Shown: in pieces, positions 873-36,239 of the stretch
Position numbering within the stretch: the first letter of the stretch is position 1
How the letters are laid out: each line of letters begins with the position of its first letter
Source of the DNA: a virus
Virus record (IMG/VR): IMGVR_UViG_3300025645_000015
Coordinates: 1-44,832 of that record
Direction: 5' to 3' (one strand)
Length of the DNA stretch: 44,832 bases
Notes under the pieces: generated by a model
Database searches by the model: none
Told to the model about the DNA's origin: nothing
Seen by the model: only the letters and a program-made list of their open reading frames with translations
Made by a program: the position numbers and the translations under genes

Positions 873-2744
873 ATGGCCATTGGTGTATTAAAATCCGGTG
901 TGAATTCGCAAGACGTAACAGCTTCTACGGGTGAGGATGTTGTTGATACGGTTAATTATGTTTACTCATCCGTGCTAGCTGCGGCAGGTAACAATATACT
1001 TGACTTTGGTGCTGACGGCACCTTAATTGCGGATTCCGCCGCCGCACAAGCCGTTATAGACGCTGGATATACTTATGTTTTGCTACCGTACCGATCTGAG
1101 CCTTATAAATTAAATGGATTAATAGCGGCCAATAGGTTTTCGTTTGTTGGAGTTAGCGGTAAAGATGGACAAAAGCCAACTATTGAGGCCAGCGGAACAG
1201 TTATTACGATTGGTGCGCATACTGGCGCTAAACTAGATAATTTTGAGACGTTTAGAAATATTAAAATAAACGTCATTGCTGATGTGGTAGATGGGGTTTT
1301 TGATATGCGTTCATGTCGCAACTTTGTAATAGATTCCACGGTTGAGATATACGCAAGTCAGCAATATTGGATTGGCACATTAGTTAAATCATCGCGATCT
1401 TACCAATGTACAATATCTGCAAAAAACTTTGCCAAAGGTGTTTCACTAATTGAAATAGGTGACAATGCAGGTGGTGAGGTATTAGATAATATTAACTTAA
1501 CAAACGCATTAGTGCAGGGTAATGTTGCAATAATGCAGCGCGACAATGTAGCTGCCTATAACTTACATAACATTTCTATTGACGGTCTTAAGTGCAGAGA
1601 ATCGGCAGGCTCAGGAGAAGCGACTCTAGCAAATCAGGGCATGACTCACATAACATCGAGCTTAACAGCAGGTGATACGATTATAAATGTTACTGACGCC
1701 ACCCAACTTAAGCAAGGCAATCTTGTAGCTAATGATTTAATTTACATTGGACAACGCAACAATGCTGAATATGTTCGAGTATTGAGTAAGTCAGGTAATG
1801 CAATTACGCTTGATACCCCGTTGCGATTCAATCACTCGAATGATGCAAACAGTAGTGGTATCGGTGAGCCGGTTATCTATGGGCCTGTTTATATAACACT
1901 TGATAGCGTTAGGGGCTTAAACGCGGGTCAAGTGCATTTCGAACGCGGTTTTGTTGCAATGCATTTACACAATCCATTAGCTACATCATTTGGCACATTG
2001 CATGACACAAGTAAAAACCTAATTATGTGTACCCACACCGGCAAAGATAATGTCATCAATACAATACAAGGTGGTAACACTGGTTGGGCTGGGAATATTG
2101 CGATAATGAATAGACCTGCGCACGCAAACACAAGTGCAGCAATTAAGCCTTGGAAAATAGCAAGTAAGCCAGTTATTGACGCCCCGTTTGTTACACAAGT
2201 TGGTACGGTTCCAGCCGGCAAATATCTATGGAGTTACCAGTATCAAAATAAAACAGAAGTCGCCAGAGTTTTTGCTTCAACTACAGCGGATCTAGGGGAT
2301 TGCTCTGATTTTTATATAAACATGGATGGTTCGGTTACAATAGTTACATCAACTGCTGGGTTATTTGTTGGTCAAAAGTCCTGTTTGCATATCAGACAGG
2401 ATGCTACTGGTGGCCGCATAGTCTTTGGTTTTGACGCAACATTTACGCTCATAAAACCATACAAGGCATCCACTTCAGCTTATGCTGTTGATACTTTGGA
2501 ATTCGAGTGGAATGGCACTGTGTGGGTTGAGCAAAGACGATCACCGAGAATAACCGACAAGCCTTACTTTGTGACCACTACAACTTTACTAAATACTATC
2601 GCGCAGAACATAAATGCACAGTATAAAGAAAAAGATTTGGAAGTACTTAACTCAACAACAGGTCTTATTGTTCGGGCTGTAGATGGCACAGCCGGTGCTA
2701 TTTGGGTTAATAGAGATGGTACAACAGCCGCCACACCGGTCTGA
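873..2744 (+). CDS. Tail spike / tail fibre with beta-helix-like fold
   Basis: This 623-residue protein starts behind a GGGGG ribosome binding site. After about 40 residues it shows NILDFGADGTLIADSAAA, the form typical of the start of pectate-lyase-like right-handed beta-helix tailspikes (DFGADG followed by a repeated aliphatic pattern). The middle, about residues 80-420, is rich in regularly spaced Ile/Val/Asn as in stacked beta-coils. The C-terminal 150 residues look like a separate globular domain. Such proteins bind or cleave host surface polysaccharide. No catalytic residues can be named from sequence alone. Unusually, it lies upstream of the connector genes instead of after the tape measure. 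Confidence 0.75.
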   Translation: MAIGVLKSGVNSQDVTASTGEDVVDTVNYVYSSVLAAAGNNILDFGADGTLIADSAAAQAVIDAGYTYVLLPYRSEPYKLNGLIAANRFSFVGVSGKDGQKPTIEASGTVITIGAHTGAKLDNFETFRNIKINVIADVVDGVFDMRSCRNFVIDSTVEIYASQQYWIGTLVKSSRSYQCTISAKNFAKGVSLIEIGDNAGGEVLDNINLTNALVQGNVAIMQRDNVAAYNLHNISIDGLKCRESAGSGEATLANQGMTHITSSLTAGDTIINVTDATQLKQGNLVANDLIYIGQRNNAEYVRVLSKSGNAITLDTPLRFNHSNDANSSGIGEPVIYGPVYITLDSVRGLNAGQVHFERGFVAMHLHNPLATSFGTLHDTSKNLIMCTHTGKDNVINTIQGGNTGWAGNIAIMNRPAHANTSAAIKPWKIASKPVIDAPFVTQVGTVPAGKYLWSYQYQNKTEVARVFASTTADLGDCSDFYINMDGSVTIVTSTAGLFVGQKSCLHIRQDATGGRIVFGFDATFTLIKPYKASTSAYAVDTLEFEWNGTVWVEQRRSPRITDKPYFVTTTTLLNTIAQNINAQYKEKDLEVLNSTTGLIVRAVDGTAGAIWVNRDGTTAATPV

Positions 2745-3859: not shown

Positions 3860-4269
3860 CAACCACCAACCTATCCGCAAAGCTGGCAGAGTTCCGCAAA
3901 CTATCACGAGATAGGATGCAAACTGTTGTCGAGAAATCGCTGATTAGGTCGGGCACTTCTGTCATTGTTGAATCGCCAGTTGATACCGGTAGATTTGCGG
4001 CCAACTGGATGTTTGCATTTGGTGACTATGACGGCACAACGATTAATGGTGATTTCAGTGGAGAAGGCGAGAAACAAGGCTCGATTAATAAGCTAACGTC
4101 GAACGTGTCTAACATCGAGCTTGGTTCAACTTTTTTTATGACAAACTCATTGCCTTATGCCGACCGATTAGAAAATAAGGAATGGTCAGCAAAAGGCAGT
4201 AAAATGGTTTACAGGGCCGTGATGAATTTCCCTGCCGTGGTTGCTGATGAAGTTGGAAAGGTTAAATAA
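3856..4269 (+). CDS. Tail completion / neck protein (HK97 gp10-like)
   Basis: The 137-residue protein has the SPVDTGRFAANWMF signature typical of HK97-gp10 / gpZ-like minor tail proteins, in which a DTG(R)-(L/F)..(S/N)W motif follows an N-terminal helix. It overlaps its neighbours at both ends (ATGA, then TAATG). The role inferred from the family is at the head-tail interface during tail attachment. Confidence 0.7.
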   Translation: MTTTNLSAKLAEFRKLSRDRMQTVVEKSLIRSGTSVIVESPVDTGRFAANWMFAFGDYDGTTINGDFSGEGEKQGSINKLTSNVSNIELGSTFFMTNSLPYADRLENKEWSAKGSKMVYRAVMNFPAVVADEVGKVK

Positions 4270-4682
4270 TGACAACAATAAACGAATCATATGTAAGTAA
4301 AGCGCTGATCGACCACTTAATGAGCATTCCAAACTTGCCACATATTGTGACTGAAAATACGGCTTATACCCCTGTCATTGGCACTCCTTATTTGCGTGAA
4401 ATGGACATTCCAGCAATCACTCAGGCGCCAACGCTAAACACAACTGGCTATCAACGCAGAGATGGCGCCTATCGTATCGGGCTGTTTTATCCAAAAAGTA
4501 CAGGCAAGTTTCAGGCCCTGGCTATTGCTGACAAAATCATATCAAGGTTTTATCGTGGTCTTAGATTGGAATATGAAGAACAAACGGTTGAGATTAAAAC
4601 GACTGACCGCGAGCAGATTTATACTGATGGCGAATTTATTCAGTGCGGATTGATGATTAGATATACTGTTGTTGTGAATTAG
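4269..4682 (+). CDS. Tail terminator (DUF4128-like)
   Basis: The 137-residue protein follows the neck protein directly. It has an N-terminal helix with a central TGYQRRDGAYRIGLFYPKS strand pair and FYRG...E, as in DUF4128 / gpU-like tail terminators that cap the tail tube. The next gene downstream, after a long gene-free block, is the tail tube gene, which is the expected partner. Confidence 0.65.
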   Translation: MTTINESYVSKALIDHLMSIPNLPHIVTENTAYTPVIGTPYLREMDIPAITQAPTLNTTGYQRRDGAYRIGLFYPKSTGKFQALAIADKIISRFYRGLRLEYEEQTVEIKTTDREQIYTDGEFIQCGLMIRYTVVVN

Positions 4683-5160
4683 TCCGTAGCGCCACAGTGG
4701 ACTAGCCTGCATGATGGGGACAAAATAAATAAAAACCCCGACTTGCCCATATATCGTTTGTCATTAACAACCCGTAACTGCTAAGCAAGGAGAGCTTAAA
4801 CTAAGATTGCGACTCACTGGACCAGATGGTACTACAGAATACTTATTCAACTGATGACTGGTGGCCACTTAAACACCTGCGAATACCGCTGACGTACAAT
4901 CATCATGTGAATAAACATTCACCGCGCCTGCGGTCACTTGTCTAAACCGTTATCATTACTCAGGAGTCCAAGCCTCGCTTGAGTGATTCGTCAGTTGTTC
5001 CGGTTTATTCTTGATTATTTAGCTAATCACTCTGAATTTGCGCTTGTAGCCTATTTAATTCGCAAACTCTTTAGGCTGGTCTCATTTAGTTATGATTGAC
5101 CGCTTCTAACGGCTAATTATCACGTTGCATATAAAAACCCTCTCGTTAGGTTATTTATTC
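4680..5160. ncRNA. Candidate large structured non-coding RNA in a gene-free block (4683-5301)
   Basis: About 620 bp here have no convincing ORF on either strand although the surrounding genes overlap. Many inverted repeats are visible on the plus strand: 4680-4685/4699-4704 (TAGTCC), 4782-4786/4794-4798, 4860-4863/4874-4877, 4907-4912/4917-4922 (6 bp, AAAC loop), 4922-4925/4930-4933, 4943-4949/5001-5007 (7 bp) enclosing 4955-4962/4980-4987 (8 bp with one G-U), 5012-5017/5024-5029, 5037-5042/5061-5066, 5048-5053/5072-5077 and 5095-5102/5110-5117. Two of these interleave as a pseudoknot. By size and phage context it recalls GOLLD or ROOL ornate RNAs, but I see no identifying motif. The strand is unresolved: G-U pairs mildly favour plus, while the dyad at 5221 could drive the minus strand. 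Confidence 0.5.
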
Positions 5161-5182
5161 TCTTTTCCTAGACCGCAAAACA

Positions 5183-5252
5183 AATATACACCACCACATA
5201 AAAACCGCAACCTTTAAATAACTGGTAAGACCAGTGCTATTTATTGTACAAT
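5183..5252. promoter_or_regulatory. Dyad site ACTGGTAAGACCAGT (5221-5235), atypical copy
   Basis: This is a perfect 15-bp dyad of the phage-wide element, but without the GTG at the usual distance. Rightward, TACAAT (5247-5252) follows 11 bp after it, the same spacing as the portal-side -10 at 39471, and could serve the tail tube gene. Leftward, TATATT (read on minus, 5183-5188) preceded by GTG lies about 32 bp away with a weak TTG-containing -35. Which direction is active is inferred only. Confidence 0.5.
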
Positions 5253-5301
5253 TGGCAAAGGATGATCGATCGATTAACTATTTTTATATGAGGGCTTTAA
5301 A

Positions 5302-5748
5302 ATGCCAGTAATGACTAGTACAGAAACAATTCTGCGAGTATCCGCAGCTACACCAGCAACGTTCGACGAAGCAGGCTATGCAGCGCTTACATTCACGGAA
5401 GTAAAAGAAGTAACCACAATTCCCGCGTATGGACCAACTCGTCAAGTTGTAAACCATGAGCCGTTAGCAACTGGCGTAACTGAAAAATACGGCGGCTTTA
5501 TCAACTATGGTTCTGTTGCTGTAGATGGCGCTTATGATTCTATTGACGCTGGACAATCTATTTTACGCGCTAACGTGTTATCAGCTACCGCATTGTTATC
5601 AGTCGCTATCGAATACCAAGATGGCTCAATAGATTACACATACGGCAAAGCATTCAGCGCAACTAAAGCCCCAGGCTCTGCAAACTCAATGGTTGGTTCT
5701 TCTATGAACATCGAGTTTAACAAGCCTATCGTCGAAGTCGCAGCGTAA
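5302..5748 (+). CDS. Major tail tube protein
   Basis: The 148-residue protein sits between the tail terminator and the tail chaperones, the usual position of the tube protein. It is beta-rich with EVTTIPAYGPTRQVVNHEPLA near residue 35, matching gpV-like tube proteins that carry an early strand-loop of this type. It starts behind GAGGGC. It should polymerise as rings around the tape measure. Confidence 0.7.
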   Translation: MPVMTSTETILRVSAATPATFDEAGYAALTFTEVKEVTTIPAYGPTRQVVNHEPLATGVTEKYGGFINYGSVAVDGAYDSIDAGQSILRANVLSATALLSVAIEYQDGSIDYTYGKAFSATKAPGSANSMVGSSMNIEFNKPIVEVAA

Positions 5749-6113: not shown

Positions 6114-6136
6114 TAGGGGCTTAGCGCCCCTATTTT
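6114..6136. terminator. Bidirectional rho-independent terminator
   Basis: TAGGGGC (6114-6120), a 5-base loop and GCCCCTA (6126-6132) form a perfect 7-bp stem followed by TTTT on plus and by an A/T-rich run on minus. It lies between the convergent genes ending at 6109 (+) and 6135 (-). Confidence 0.85.
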
Positions 6137-6536
6137 ATTCTCCACAGCCTTTACCAACTTTTCCTTTATCTCTATCATCAACAAAGTCAGCCCAATTAAC
6201 CCATCCTTTAGGGCAGTGGAAACCCCAACTCCTAATTACTGGCCCAGTTATAAACAATGTCCAAGCTGGTCCATTCAAGATTTTAAGCATGTGAGCGAAC
6301 TTAGCAGACCTAACTAGTGGTAAAAACCTTTTTGGTATTCTTGAGCCATTTTTGTGCACCTCCAATAACTTGCCTTTCAACAAAAAACTTACTGACCACC
6401 AAGGGTGATCGTGCAATGCTCGATCATCATCGTCATGCATTATCTTGTGGAGATATACGTTAAAGTACTTGTTGCGTGGTATCAACCACCACCGATGCAT
6501 GTAGTTATCGCCTATTATAAAATCTGGTTTTCTCAC
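6135..6536 (-). CDS. Cupin-like phage accessory protein
   Basis: I place the start at GTG (6534-6536) because GGAG lies 8 bases upstream; a TTG at 6554 has no such site. The protein of about 133 residues has the signature of a phage cupin-fold family: YMHRWWLIPRNKYFNVYLH, then DDDDRALHDHPWW with an HxH pair, and later a GFHCP strand. The histidines are where cupins bind metal. The substrate is unknown. It is a stand-alone leftward cassette inside the tail operon, with its own dyad promoter at 6569-6607 and a terminator at 6114. Confidence 0.65.
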   Translation of the reverse strand: MRKPDFIIGDNYMHRWWLIPRNKYFNVYLHKIMHDDDDRALHDHPWWSVSFLLKGKLLEVHKNGSRIPKRFLPLVRSAKFAHMLKILNGPAWTLFITGPVIRSWGFHCPKGWVNWADFVDDRDKGKVGKGCGE

Positions 6537-6568
6537 TCTACCAACTCCATCCAATTAAAAGAAAAACA

Positions 6569-7575: not shown

Positions 7576-7584
7576 GAGGGTTTA
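7567..7584. terminator. Terminator between convergent genes
   Basis: CCCTC (7567-7571), loop TTAG and GAGGG (7576-7580) form a short GC stem followed by TTTAAT. It overlaps the stop codon of the tail chaperone T frame and the stop of the leftward gene at 7582. Confidence 0.6.
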
Positions 7585-7986
7585 ATCTGGCTTGTTAATC
7601 CATGCTAGATCTACTGATTCTGAATAATACCCATTAGATTCACCTAGCCACCGCATCCATATGCTGCCTTTAGTTGTCTGTATATCATAAAATGTCCAAG
7701 TGAAGCTATCTGAATATTCACTTGGCTTATCTTTTGAGTCTTCATCGCCAGAGTTGCTTCTTTCCTCTGCCGAAACGATAACGCCGCCAATTAAATCTTC
7801 CGCAACGCCTTCAAAATCATTTAAATGCACATCCTCACAGCAACCTTGTTCATGATAAAAAAGGTATTCATTGCCGCACTCAGTAAACACCCTTACTTCC
7901 TCTGAGCCTTCTATTAACCCTGTAATGCTTTTAATTACTTTTCCTTCCAATTCTTTTAGCTCAACTCTTTTATTCCAGTGTCCCAT
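7582..7986 (-). CDS. DUF7448-family phage protein
   Basis: The 134-residue protein starts behind GAGGATA. It shows the pattern of the DUF7448 family: LEGKVIKSITGLIEGSEEV, a YHEQGCCEDV motif, DLIGGVIVSAEE, and FYDIQTTKGSIWMRWLGES followed by NGYYSESV. Its role is unknown; members occur as accessory genes in many phages. It is a single-gene leftward cassette between the chaperone and tape measure, with a dyad promoter at 8016-8054 and a terminator at 7567. Confidence 0.75.
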   Translation of the reverse strand: MGHWNKRVELKELEGKVIKSITGLIEGSEEVRVFTECGNEYLFYHEQGCCEDVHLNDFEGVAEDLIGGVIVSAEERSNSGDEDSKDKPSEYSDSFTWTFYDIQTTKGSIWMRWLGESNGYYSESVDLAWINKPD

Positions 7987-8015
7987 ATTTATATCCTCTT
8001 AGTTACCGAAACCAA

Positions 8016-8064
8016 ACCATACCACAAACAATTCGTTTAACTGGTTTGACCAGTGGGTTATACT
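8016..8064. promoter_or_regulatory. Dyad promoter (leftward) overlapping the tape measure promoter
   Basis: The dyad ACTGGTTTGACCAGT is at 8040-8054. Leftward, the -10 TATGGT (8021-8016) follows 18 bp later, with GTG at spacer positions 15-17, for the DUF7448 gene. Rightward, TTTAAC (8036-8041), 17 bp and TATACT (8059-8064) form a promoter for the tape measure gene, again with the dyad inside the spacer. Confidence 0.75.
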
Positions 8065-15661: not shown

Positions 15662-16113
15662 TGACCGATGCCATTTTGATGGGCTGCTTTTTAGCGGCCC
15701 TTTATTTTAACAGGTTAATGTATCCGGCTGTATTGTCGTATGCTATCACATGCTTATATATTTCAACTTTATTTGATTCACACTCCGCAGTAATTAATCA
15801 TGTTATTTACGGGTTAATATTTATCCCGCCTTGCTTTGTTGCTACAATGCGACTATCTGCCGCGATGCTTTGGTATTCAACTTTCCATCTTGTTGTAGCA
15901 ATTGATTATTTTATCTACCCAGAAACGGTAACGCTTATTTCATATTTATATAATTACATACAAATTGCGTTAGCTATAAGTCTTATTTACGTTGGGTTTG
16001 AGGCATCACATGACAGCACAAACAGTTTACGAAATAGGGGCTATAGCTTTTCTGGGGTGGGCGATATATGGCACTTTCAAACACATAAGAAAACGGAAAA
16101 TAAAACACGATGA
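15661..16113 (+). CDS. Multi-pass membrane protein of the lysis block
   Basis: The 150-residue protein has about four hydrophobic segments (around residues 5-25, 30-55, 60-85 and 90-115) with short loops and a polar basic tail. It starts at TAATG behind the micro-gene. The position before holin and endolysin genes suggests a lysis or membrane function; it could be a holin or a host-membrane protein. The family is not recognised. Confidence 0.5.
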   Translation: MTDAILMGCFLAALYFNRLMYPAVLSYAITCLYISTLFDSHSAVINHVIYGLIFIPPCFVATMRLSAAMLWYSTFHLVVAIDYFIYPETVTLISYLYNYIQIALAISLIYVGFEASHDSTNSLRNRGYSFSGVGDIWHFQTHKKTENKTR

Positions 16114-19181: not shown

Positions 19182-19357
19182 TTAAGTTCACTTTCTTTGC
19201 TGAATAACCAGCTTCTGCTAACAATAATGTAATTCGATTTTCCAGATAAATGCTGTAATCCAGCATCGCGCAATACTTCGTTTTTTATAAACAAAAAGAA
19301 GCTGTCAGTCGAATTCAACTCTTTTTTAATTTCTTCTAACGCTTCTGCTTTAGTCAT
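19178..19357 (-). CDS. Small hypothetical protein
   Basis: The 59-residue gene is the first after the dyad promoter at 19381-19419. It begins MTKAEALEEIKKELNSTDS and ends in a TGA that overlaps the next ATG. The pattern is an amphipathic helix followed by a short beta region. No family is recognised. Confidence 0.55.
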   Translation of the reverse strand: MTKAEALEEIKKELNSTDSFFLFIKNEVLRDAGLQHLSGKSNYIIVSRSWLFSKESELK

Positions 19358-19380
19358 AATGCAACCCGTTAATTTCCCAA

Positions 19381-19419
19381 ATCATACCACTATTATTCTT
19401 CTTTAGTGGTATGACCAGT
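19381..19419 (-). promoter_or_regulatory. Dyad promoter, leftward
   Basis: Read on minus: ACTGGTCATACCACT (19419-19405), 18 bp with GTG at positions 15-17, then TATGAT (19386-19381). It drives the gene at 19357. The dyad lies inside the 3' end of the small membrane-protein gene at 19393-19497 and encodes its TGHTT residues. Confidence 0.7.
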
Positions 19420-19497
19420 GTTTAGCTCTTCGCCTATTTCAAGCCACTCCAAAATTAACCAGATTAATAGCAGCAATATAAAGTAGTTAAGCATCAT
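19393..19497 (-). CDS. Small single-TM protein
   Basis: The 34-residue product starts at an ATGA overlap with the preceding gene. Its first 20 residues, MMLNYFILLLLIWLILEWLE, form one membrane helix; the rest is acidic and then carries TGHTTKEE encoded by the dyad operator. Coupling and composition argue for a genuine membrane micro-protein. Role unknown. Confidence 0.55.
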   Translation of the reverse strand: MMLNYFILLLLIWLILEWLEIGEELNTGHTTKEE

Positions 19498-30309: not shown

Positions 30310-30705
30310 TTAAATGCCAATGTAAGTAAAATGGTAAGCACAAGATACTTATTTATTTATCTACTGTCAAACTGATTTTTTAATATTAATTAAAACTGGG
30401 GCATCTTGGGCAAATAATTTAAAAACTGGGAGGGAAACACGCCCAGTCGCTAGGCCGCATTAATAAAGGGATTTTACTGTTTTTTATGCTTAAATTGACG
30501 TTTTGGGGCAGTGTGCGTCCTTGTATGAGTATAAAATAATTAAATAGTAGAAATAAAATAAATAAAGGTAACTGCCCCAGTTTATATATATTTATACTTA
30601 AACCCTTATTTTTAAAGGGCTACAGACTGGGCGTATAACTGCCCCAAAATACCCCAAACTGGGAGTATTTACGATATAATACTGAAAACCTATCTGGACA
30701 ACCCA
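30310..30705. other. Divergent control region with TGGGGCAGT-type repeats; candidate origin
   Basis: Nearly 400 non-coding bases lie between leftward and rightward genes. Copies of a TGGGGCA(GT) element occur at 30397-30403, 30504-30512 and, inverted, at 30571-30579 and 30638-30646. AACTGCCCCAGTT (30570-30582) is a full dyad; ACTGGG...CCCAGT (30425-30430/30442-30447) is an inverted repeat; further ACTGGG cores lie at 30626 and 30658. An A/T stretch spans 30530-30568. This fits Cro operators or replication iterons with an unwinding element. Confidence 0.55.
30342..30370 (-). promoter_or_regulatory. Strong leftward early promoter
   Basis: Read on minus: TTGACA (30370-30365), 17 bp, TATCTT (30347-30342), a near-consensus sigma-70 promoter. 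It should drive the Cro-like gene and the replication operon to its left. Confidence 0.8.
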
Positions 30706-31651: not shown

Positions 31652-31711
31652 ACCGCCCTCTTTAGAGGGTAACAACCGACGCAGTATGTCAAAACAAAAA
31701 GGATTAAGATT

Positions 31712-31852
31712 ATGAGATACTACGAGACAGACACAAATAGTTATATTGTTATCAACCAACGCCACACAAAACGGTTTACATGGAAGCAAACGTTGTGCTG
31801 GTGGATGATTATTTTAGTTGGTGGCTTGGTTAATTGGTTAATATGGCTCTAA
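31712..31852 (+). CDS. Small membrane protein (46 residues)
   Basis: ATG at 31712 is preceded by GGATTAAG. The 46-residue product has a polar N-terminal half (MRYYETDTNSYIVINQRH) and a C-terminal membrane helix (LCWWMIILVGGLVNWLIWL). It is a plausible small phage membrane protein; no family is recognised. Confidence 0.5.
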   Translation: MRYYETDTNSYIVINQRHTKRFTWKQTLCWWMIILVGGLVNWLIWL

Positions 31853-31871
31853 TCGTTCGTGAGTCGAACGA
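31853..31871. repeat. Inverted repeat TCGTTCG-TGAGT-CGAACGA
   Basis: A perfect 7-bp inverted repeat with a 5-base loop directly after a stop codon. There is no T-run close enough for a classic terminator, so it could be a weak terminator, an mRNA-end hairpin or an operator unlike the phage-wide dyad. Confidence 0.6.
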
Positions 31872-31919
31872 GGTTAGGTTTTAATGGTATGGGTAATACA
31901 CTTGGATAGGTAGGATAAA

Positions 31920-35546: not shown

Positions 35547-36149
35547 TTAAACCATACTTTTATCGTTCAAGTGGTCCGATGAGTACCTATTCCTCAAAGC
35601 ATTAGCAACTCTTTCATCCGATTGTAAATCGGCATATTTGCATGCTATCTCGTGCTTTCTTTTCTTCCATGCCTGATGAGCTTCTTCTGTGGTATGGTAG
35701 ACTCCTAATCTAGCATTCCTGCTTTTTGAAAACGGATTACTGCATTGCCCTATAATGTATCCGTCACCATTAATATGAACGCCTATAGGATAGCCGCCTC
35801 TTCCTGCGGCATGGTCTGTAGTAAATAAATTCAATGCTCGATCAACAAACACGCAATTTTCAGGGCTATAAACTTTATTTCCTTTAACAAGAATATCCTT
35901 ATCAATCTCTTTGCCTTCCCAGTCTTGAGCAACCATCCACGCTCTGAAATTGCTAAATGTCAGCCATTCCTCGCATACCGTGCAGTCTTTGTAAGTTGGT
36001 CTTTTTGTATGGTATTTATCTGAATAACATCTTCTTATCATGTCATACCAAACGCTATAAAACCTGCATATAGACCTCTTTTCTCCACCCCTTGGTCTTA
36101 CGGAATAATTTGCATCATTAGTACCCACGCCAAAAATTGAACTTTTCAT
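35547..36149 (-). CDS. HNH homing endonuclease (AP2-linked type)
   Basis: I start at ATG 36149 (MKSSIFGVGTNDANYSV) behind GGTGATAG; upstream ATG 36176 has no support. The 200-residue protein matches phage HNH proteins with YSVWYDMIRRCY, PTYKDCTVCEEWLTFSNF and DKDILVKGNKVYSPENCVFV, followed by an AP2-like DNA-binding part (GVHINGDGYIIGQC, LGVYHTTEEAHQAW). It is the first gene of a leftward cassette and is driven by the dyad promoter at 36240-36278. Confidence 0.8.
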   Translation of the reverse strand: MKSSIFGVGTNDANYSVRPRGGEKRSICRFYSVWYDMIRRCYSDKYHTKRPTYKDCTVCEEWLTFSNFRAWMVAQDWEGKEIDKDILVKGNKVYSPENCVFVDRALNLFTTDHAAGRGGYPIGVHINGDGYIIGQCSNPFSKSRNARLGVYHTTEEAHQAWKKRKHEIACKYADLQSDERVANALRNRYSSDHLNDKSMV

Positions 36150-36239
36150 AACTATCACCATATAGTTTTTCACCAATTGAAATTAGTGCGGCAGTCAGTT
36201 GGTGTTCTGGTTTTCGGTAGCTAACCTAGCCGCAGCTTT

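Follow-up and report, generated by a model that had tools for sequence, protein, structure and literature searches.

Comparative evidence for a previously undescribed structured RNA encoded on the minus strand of a phage tail operon

Comparison of related phages indicates that a block between two tail genes of the marine phage in IMG/VR record IMGVR_UViG_3300025645_000015 almost certainly encodes a real structured RNA, read from the minus strand. The stretch of DNA analyzed, here called the window, covers positions 1 to 44,832 of that record (44,832 nt). Judged from the sequences compared, this RNA is a previously undescribed one, with a conserved core of 147 nt (domain D) and a variable front part able to carry a tRNA-like piece. 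A limited search of the open-access literature gave no description of the D RNA.

The block between the tail genes and its conserved 3′ domain

The block and the genes that flank it are:

4683-5301 (619 nt, no strand assigned): ORF-free block between the tail terminator and tail tube genes
4269-4682: tail terminator gene (phrog_179)
5302-5748: major tail protein (tail tube) gene (phrog_158)

This block is the longest stretch of the window without any ORF of at least 60 aa. A sequence-only reading had called it gene-free, and this was borne out: the longest ORF inside has 39 aa, compared with a mean of 58 in dinucleotide shuffles of the block, of 619-nt slices taken at random from the window only 0.2% matched its stop richness, and no ORF is common to the four near relatives. 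Other long ORF-free gaps are found at 30310-30689 (380 nt), 19182-19493 (312 nt) and 31652-31919 (268 nt), and these may hold further RNAs or regulatory sites. The same reading had counted at least ten stems in the block. As raw folding this is at chance level. Minimum free energy z-scores of the whole block are −0.3 on the plus strand and +0.2 on the minus strand, no better than shuffles, and so the stems are no evidence by themselves.

The evidence comes instead from comparison. In IMG/VR we found one identical contig (L001) and three distinct near relatives that have a block at the same position, namely L002 (block identical in L010), L003, and L011 (block identical in L013). Block lengths in the near relatives are 521-744 nt; roughly 150 nt beside the tail terminator gene and 120 nt beside the tail tube gene are conserved among them, and the middle is a mosaic that differs from one to the next. 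The conserved 3′ domain of the RNA and its helices, all on the minus strand, are:

4680-4826, minus strand: domain D, 147 nt, P1 to P4 (models R1 and R2, alignment A4)
4810-4822 with 4745-4756, minus strand: helix P1, a long-range closing stem with a compensatory 5-bp end
4768-4809, minus strand: helix P2, apical loop UCUCCUU (4787-4793), 12 of 16 pairs changed on both sides
4716-4739, minus strand: helix P3 (GGGG/CCCC), 2 of 4 pairs changed on both sides
4680-4704, minus strand: hairpin P4, invariant CCACU..GGCG....GG, 5 of 9 pairs changed on both sides

Covariance model R1, trained only on the window and the three near relatives, found two full-length divergent copies of D, one in L005 (3776-3904, minus strand, E 7.6e-6) and one in G013 (G013:C1:15970-16105, plus strand, E 9.5e-6), with E-values that are rough, the models being short-calibrated. 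L005 is a tail relative that carries its copy at the same position, between tail terminator and tail tube, in a compact unit of D plus about 100 nt ahead of the tail tube gene. The G013 copy is free-standing, about 140 nt long and not opposite tail genes; there the order is a dyad ACTGGTCATACCACT (15922-15936), an early-type −10 region, D, an intrinsic terminator directly after it (AACCCGCTTAACAGCGGGTT then TTTT), and the terminase small and large subunits. In both phages the RNA is only about 130-160 nt, without 5′ inserts or the tRNA-like module C described below, so D does not need the inserts. A weak match of model R2 in L023 was rejected, being without helix P2.

The D family as sampled here spans three phage lineages and six sequences, with 49-61% identity between lineages. 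Alignment A4 of these six distinct sequences has 94% of its cells paired and both-side changes in 22 of 40 pairs, counts that lean towards structure as the alignment was fitted to the model; none of 500 shuffles reached any of five measures of the pair statistics, and slid controls gave one to six both-side-changed pairs. An independent four-sequence alignment gave 99% paired cells and six double-change cells, again with 0/500 shuffles. The 5-bp end of P1 illustrates the pattern, reading GUCCA/UGGGC in the window, GGCCA/UGGUC in L003, GCGCA/UGCGC in L002 and L011, and GCACA/UGUGC in L005. The only invariant runs of at least four bases in D are the CUCC of the P2 loop (6/6 sequences) and the P4 core CCACU..GGCG. 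Hairpin P4 and the tail terminator gene overlap at the stop codon of that gene.

G-U cells outnumber A-C cells 39 to one on the minus strand of D, which fixes this strand as that of the RNA. The consensus fold of the region is −32.9 kcal/mol on the minus strand versus −23.1 on the plus strand, with z-scores against column shuffles of −2.0 (moderate) and −1.0, respectively. Because the minus-strand fold beats column shuffles only moderately, the pair changes are the stronger evidence. The minimum free energy fold of the window D differs from the consensus fold, and its energy is ordinary (z 0.02). A plus-strand structure for D was rejected on its weaker consensus and A-C clashes. The compensatory changes looked for in related phages are thus present, and the earlier proposal of a structured RNA locus stands by comparison, for the minus strand only and for a conserved part of 147 nt, not the whole block. 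The rest of the block is a lineage-specific mosaic absent from two lineages.

Outside these lineages the D pattern had zero matches in bacterial genomes, and no comparable block was present in the annotated regions of cultured tail-tube relatives. R1 run on the whole records of Salicola CGphi29, Vibrio 137E35-1, 1.151.O, P23 and Acinetobacter Effie likewise gave zero matches, and the block, compared by BLAST with phages and plasmids, had no useful match beyond a 46-nt piece in Pararheinheimera phage KLER1-1.

Candidate promoter, dyads and the mosaic middle

Upstream of D on the minus strand, the features of the block are:

5183-5210, minus strand: candidate promoter, −35 TTGCGG (TTGTTA in relatives), 16-nt spacer, −10 TATATT
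5221-5235, no strand assigned: operator-like dyad ACTGGTAAGACCAGT, between the minus-strand RNA and the tail tube gene
5009-5172, minus strand: segment A, a structured insert found only in the window and L002 (about 88% identity), with little covariation
4897-5008, minus strand: segment B, a structured insert found almost only in the window and L011 (93% identity)
5221, 6593, 8040, 19405, 21387, 24699, 30825, 39445, 41697, 42126 and 44278: window dyads ACTGGTNNNACCAGT, before early, late and accessory genes

The sequence-only reading had placed the block beside a dyad used by accessory cassettes, and both the dyad and the cassette-like setting were confirmed. Allowing at most one mismatch, the window has 11 copies, the one at 5221 included, and G013 has 12, with none of the reversed pattern in either; the dyad, or a weaker form of it, lies beside D in all three lineages. 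By inspection, dyads in the rightward tail/head direction stand just before a −10-like TATACT, and those in the opposite direction, at accessory and early genes, are followed after about 13-20 nt by a −10 of the TGTG-TAT type. This second arrangement is found at two minus-strand neighbours, 6135-6554 (phrog_4786, cysteine dioxygenase) and 7582-7986. The −10 of the block (GTGTATATT) is of the same kind as that of the accessory and early genes, but it is about 33 nt from the dyad and has a weak −35. A consensus sigma-70 scanner made no call at 5183-5210. For these three reasons the promoter stays a candidate for the minus-strand RNA, although all four near relatives conserve it, and in L003 and L011 the sequence beyond it diverges.

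The E. coli FadR palindrome is aaCTGGTCnGACC(T/A)Gtt (PMC9329746), and the window dyad ACTGGTNNNACCAGT fits it. We found no phage-encoded GntR/FadR gene that could act as the dyad regulator, and so a FadR-like regulator of the host may serve these sites.

Between the candidate promoter and D, the alignments of this phage and its near relatives show exchangeable structured inserts, one of them tRNA-like. Segments A and B each rest on two sequences; B has three covarying pairs, with G-U cells favouring the minus strand. The L002 block has an extra insert (2329-2440, minus strand) that has two hairpins, one resembling a T arm and one an anticodon arm (TCTGGTTTGAATCCAGA), and no tRNA call.

In the window and in L005, all that follows D on the minus strand is the antisense of the tail terminator gene. 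As no minus-strand gene lies downstream, D is not a leader, and a cis-acting leader or riboswitch was rejected for want of a co-directional gene after it. Beyond D, neither phage showed a minus-strand terminator, which leaves the 3′ end of the RNA uncertain in these two.

Module C, a tRNA-like insert

The tRNA-like insert has one entry in the window:

4839-4918, minus strand: module C, an outer stem, a 2x2 internal loop and an acceptor-like stem around a variable body (4860-4897)

Its frame, UUAUUCA-CA-U[7 bp]...[7 bp]A-GU-UGAAUAA, was collected at 15 loci through IMG/VR pattern scans, finds by pattern and BLAST, and inspection, and one of these loci is in the isolate Pararheinheimera phage KLER1-1. 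Among 13 distinct frames (alignment A3), 9 of 19 pairs are changed on both sides, which 0/500 shuffles matched. The flanks are conserved, and the covariation falls in the acceptor-like stem and the outermost pairs; in its paired, covarying acceptor stem module C resembles a tRNA. An exact 19-mer of module C had zero matches in bacterial genomes. Since the frame was not found in G012 or G013, we regard module C as an optional insert.

The likeness to a tRNA lies in the acceptor-like stem of 7-8 bp and in the bodies of L030, L028 and L050, which reach the gathering score of the Rfam tRNA model (RF00005). Unlike in a tRNA, the body of module C is enclosed by an additional conserved flank stem of 7 bp that has a 2x2 internal loop. 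The anticodon arm in L030 is enlarged by tens of nucleotides, and the frame there (7918-8037) encloses a tRNA missed by ARAGORN. In the window neither ARAGORN nor Rfam gives a tRNA at module C; the body has lost its T and D arms, and no D, anticodon or T arm can be recognised in it. ARAGORN called none in the relatives either. Bacterial Y RNA (YrlA) likewise has a conserved end stem and a tRNA-like body; this identity was rejected for module C, with no YrlA match and a Ro/TROVE gene in 0 of 12 records with module C.

A tRNA-enclosing frame with a covarying acceptor stem was also observed in L028, L029, L032, L039, L042, L043, L045, L047, L048 and L050, which are otherwise unrelated phages. L039, L047 and L048 are tRNA-rich and have module C on the same strand. 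Just ahead of module C in L047 and L048 is TGCTCTTTAACAAT, which resembles the rrn boxA. L042 (4224-4709) and L050 (about 5200-5620, minus strand) have a non-coding stretch around module C with CTCACAAACTCACCAG and CAAGTGGTGAT in common, a possible long-range pairing, and CAAGTGGTGAT recurs in the L011 block. This stretch is possibly a second large RNA.

Known RNA families and possible functions

The block had been likened to the GOLLD and ROOL RNAs, a likeness that the Rfam models did not support at any threshold tried. Neither family was found in window positions 4600-5400 (gathering threshold, then E up to 10) or in the L002, L003 and L011 blocks (E up to 5); loose thresholds gave chance matches only, and no family fits the block at a useful threshold. 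A group I intron, considered by eye, was rejected, as the order of elements is wrong and there is no Rfam match. Elsewhere in the window Rfam gave an int-alpA RNA (36171-36236, minus strand, 38.8 bits) where a gene for an HNH endonuclease (35547-36176, minus strand) begins, and no integrase was found among the window proteins scanned. Relatives of this HNH gene are at differing accessory positions (window 35583-36153, L002 1032-1432, L003 4070-4640), as a mobile gene would be.

Going by the sequences, we give even odds to the proposal as a whole, in which the block works as a minus-strand accessory cassette with RNA as its sole product. That product is probably a trans-acting regulatory RNA; action of its CUCC loop against Shine-Dalgarno regions is put forward more tentatively, as the preferred mechanism. 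An early-type promoter of its own beside the dyad at 5221 would drive the cassette, with transcription running leftward from about 5176 to about 4680 (some 500 nt). In mRNAs of the phage or the host, the invariant apical loop would then meet Shine-Dalgarno regions and so lower translation. Hairpin P4 (CCACU..GGCG....GG) would be a protein or stability element, and the 5′ modules would alter stability, processing or the choice of partner. C4-type phage antisense RNAs are small and expose C-rich loops able to meet a ribosome-binding site. D would have such a loop in common with them, but differs in that it has no Rfam match and no target was found: when the P2 region was searched for duplexes with gene starts, none of the targets was common to different phages. 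The CUCC loop is also short, and could make a protein contact instead.

A protein partner is central to another explanation, which we think rather unlikely, that D and/or the tRNA-like module is a decoy or sponge that binds a host RNA-binding protein, a ribonuclease or a tRNA-targeting defence factor. The invariant P4 core suits protein binding, and module C keeps its acceptor-like stem and conserved flanks around a body that is often no decoding tRNA, whereas the module is optional, its frame being missing from G012 and G013, and a partner of the Y-RNA type is unsupported by the Ro/TROVE count.

A further possibility, and an unlikely one, is an ornate RNA working like GOLLD, in which the 3′ domain self-assembles and the variable 5′ region displays or encloses the tRNA-like module. 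GOLLD has a conserved 3′ part and a less conserved 5′ part, sometimes with tRNAs in the linker, and is often >800 nt (PMC12286853). The RNA described here has the same layout, being phage-encoded with a constant 3′ part (D), a variable 5′ part (A/B/C) and a tRNA within or near; it totals about 400-625 nt in the four near relatives, and module C recurs around phage tRNAs. However, D has 147 nt and the compact copies about 130-160 nt, so large size is not essential; the locus is in the tail operon or before terS and not in a tRNA island, the Rfam model is unmatched, and there is no kissing-loop or oligomer evidence. ROOL has in common only that it is a phage-encoded structured RNA, and differs in its layout and in the missing Rfam match.

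Even less probable is antisense or transcriptional interference, in which minus-strand transcripts made early would run through D and on into the tail terminator gene, delaying head-tail expression until late. The overlap of D with the tail terminator stop codon fits, as does the lack of a minus-strand terminator, but in G013 no tail genes lie opposite the RNA, which has a terminator of its own, and such a role would not require a conserved structure and loop sequence. That the block holds functionless, decaying tRNA and other leftovers at an insertion hot spot is very improbable: the mosaic middle and a window module C without T and D arms or an ARAGORN call would fit, but decay would not keep pairs by compensatory change in three lineages, which largely refutes it for D, and the frame of module C covaries too.

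Beyond the preferred reading of a trans-acting regulatory RNA, these phages may have a new RNA class that acts as a platform, a conserved 3′ domain with exchangeable 5′ modules, for RNA assembly or for lures against host defence, its tRNA-like modules drawn from a pool common to many phages; we regard this as unlikely. The analysis adds an RNA family with strong covariation, in a minimal free-standing form and in expanded forms, and fixes the strand, which would escape an annotation of the tail operon. The recurring tRNA-like frame of module C gives a handle on the role of tRNAs in large phage RNAs, a question open for GOLLD and ROOL. The compact G013 form, which at about 140 nt comes with a dyad upstream and a terminator of its own, lends itself readily to expression and testing.
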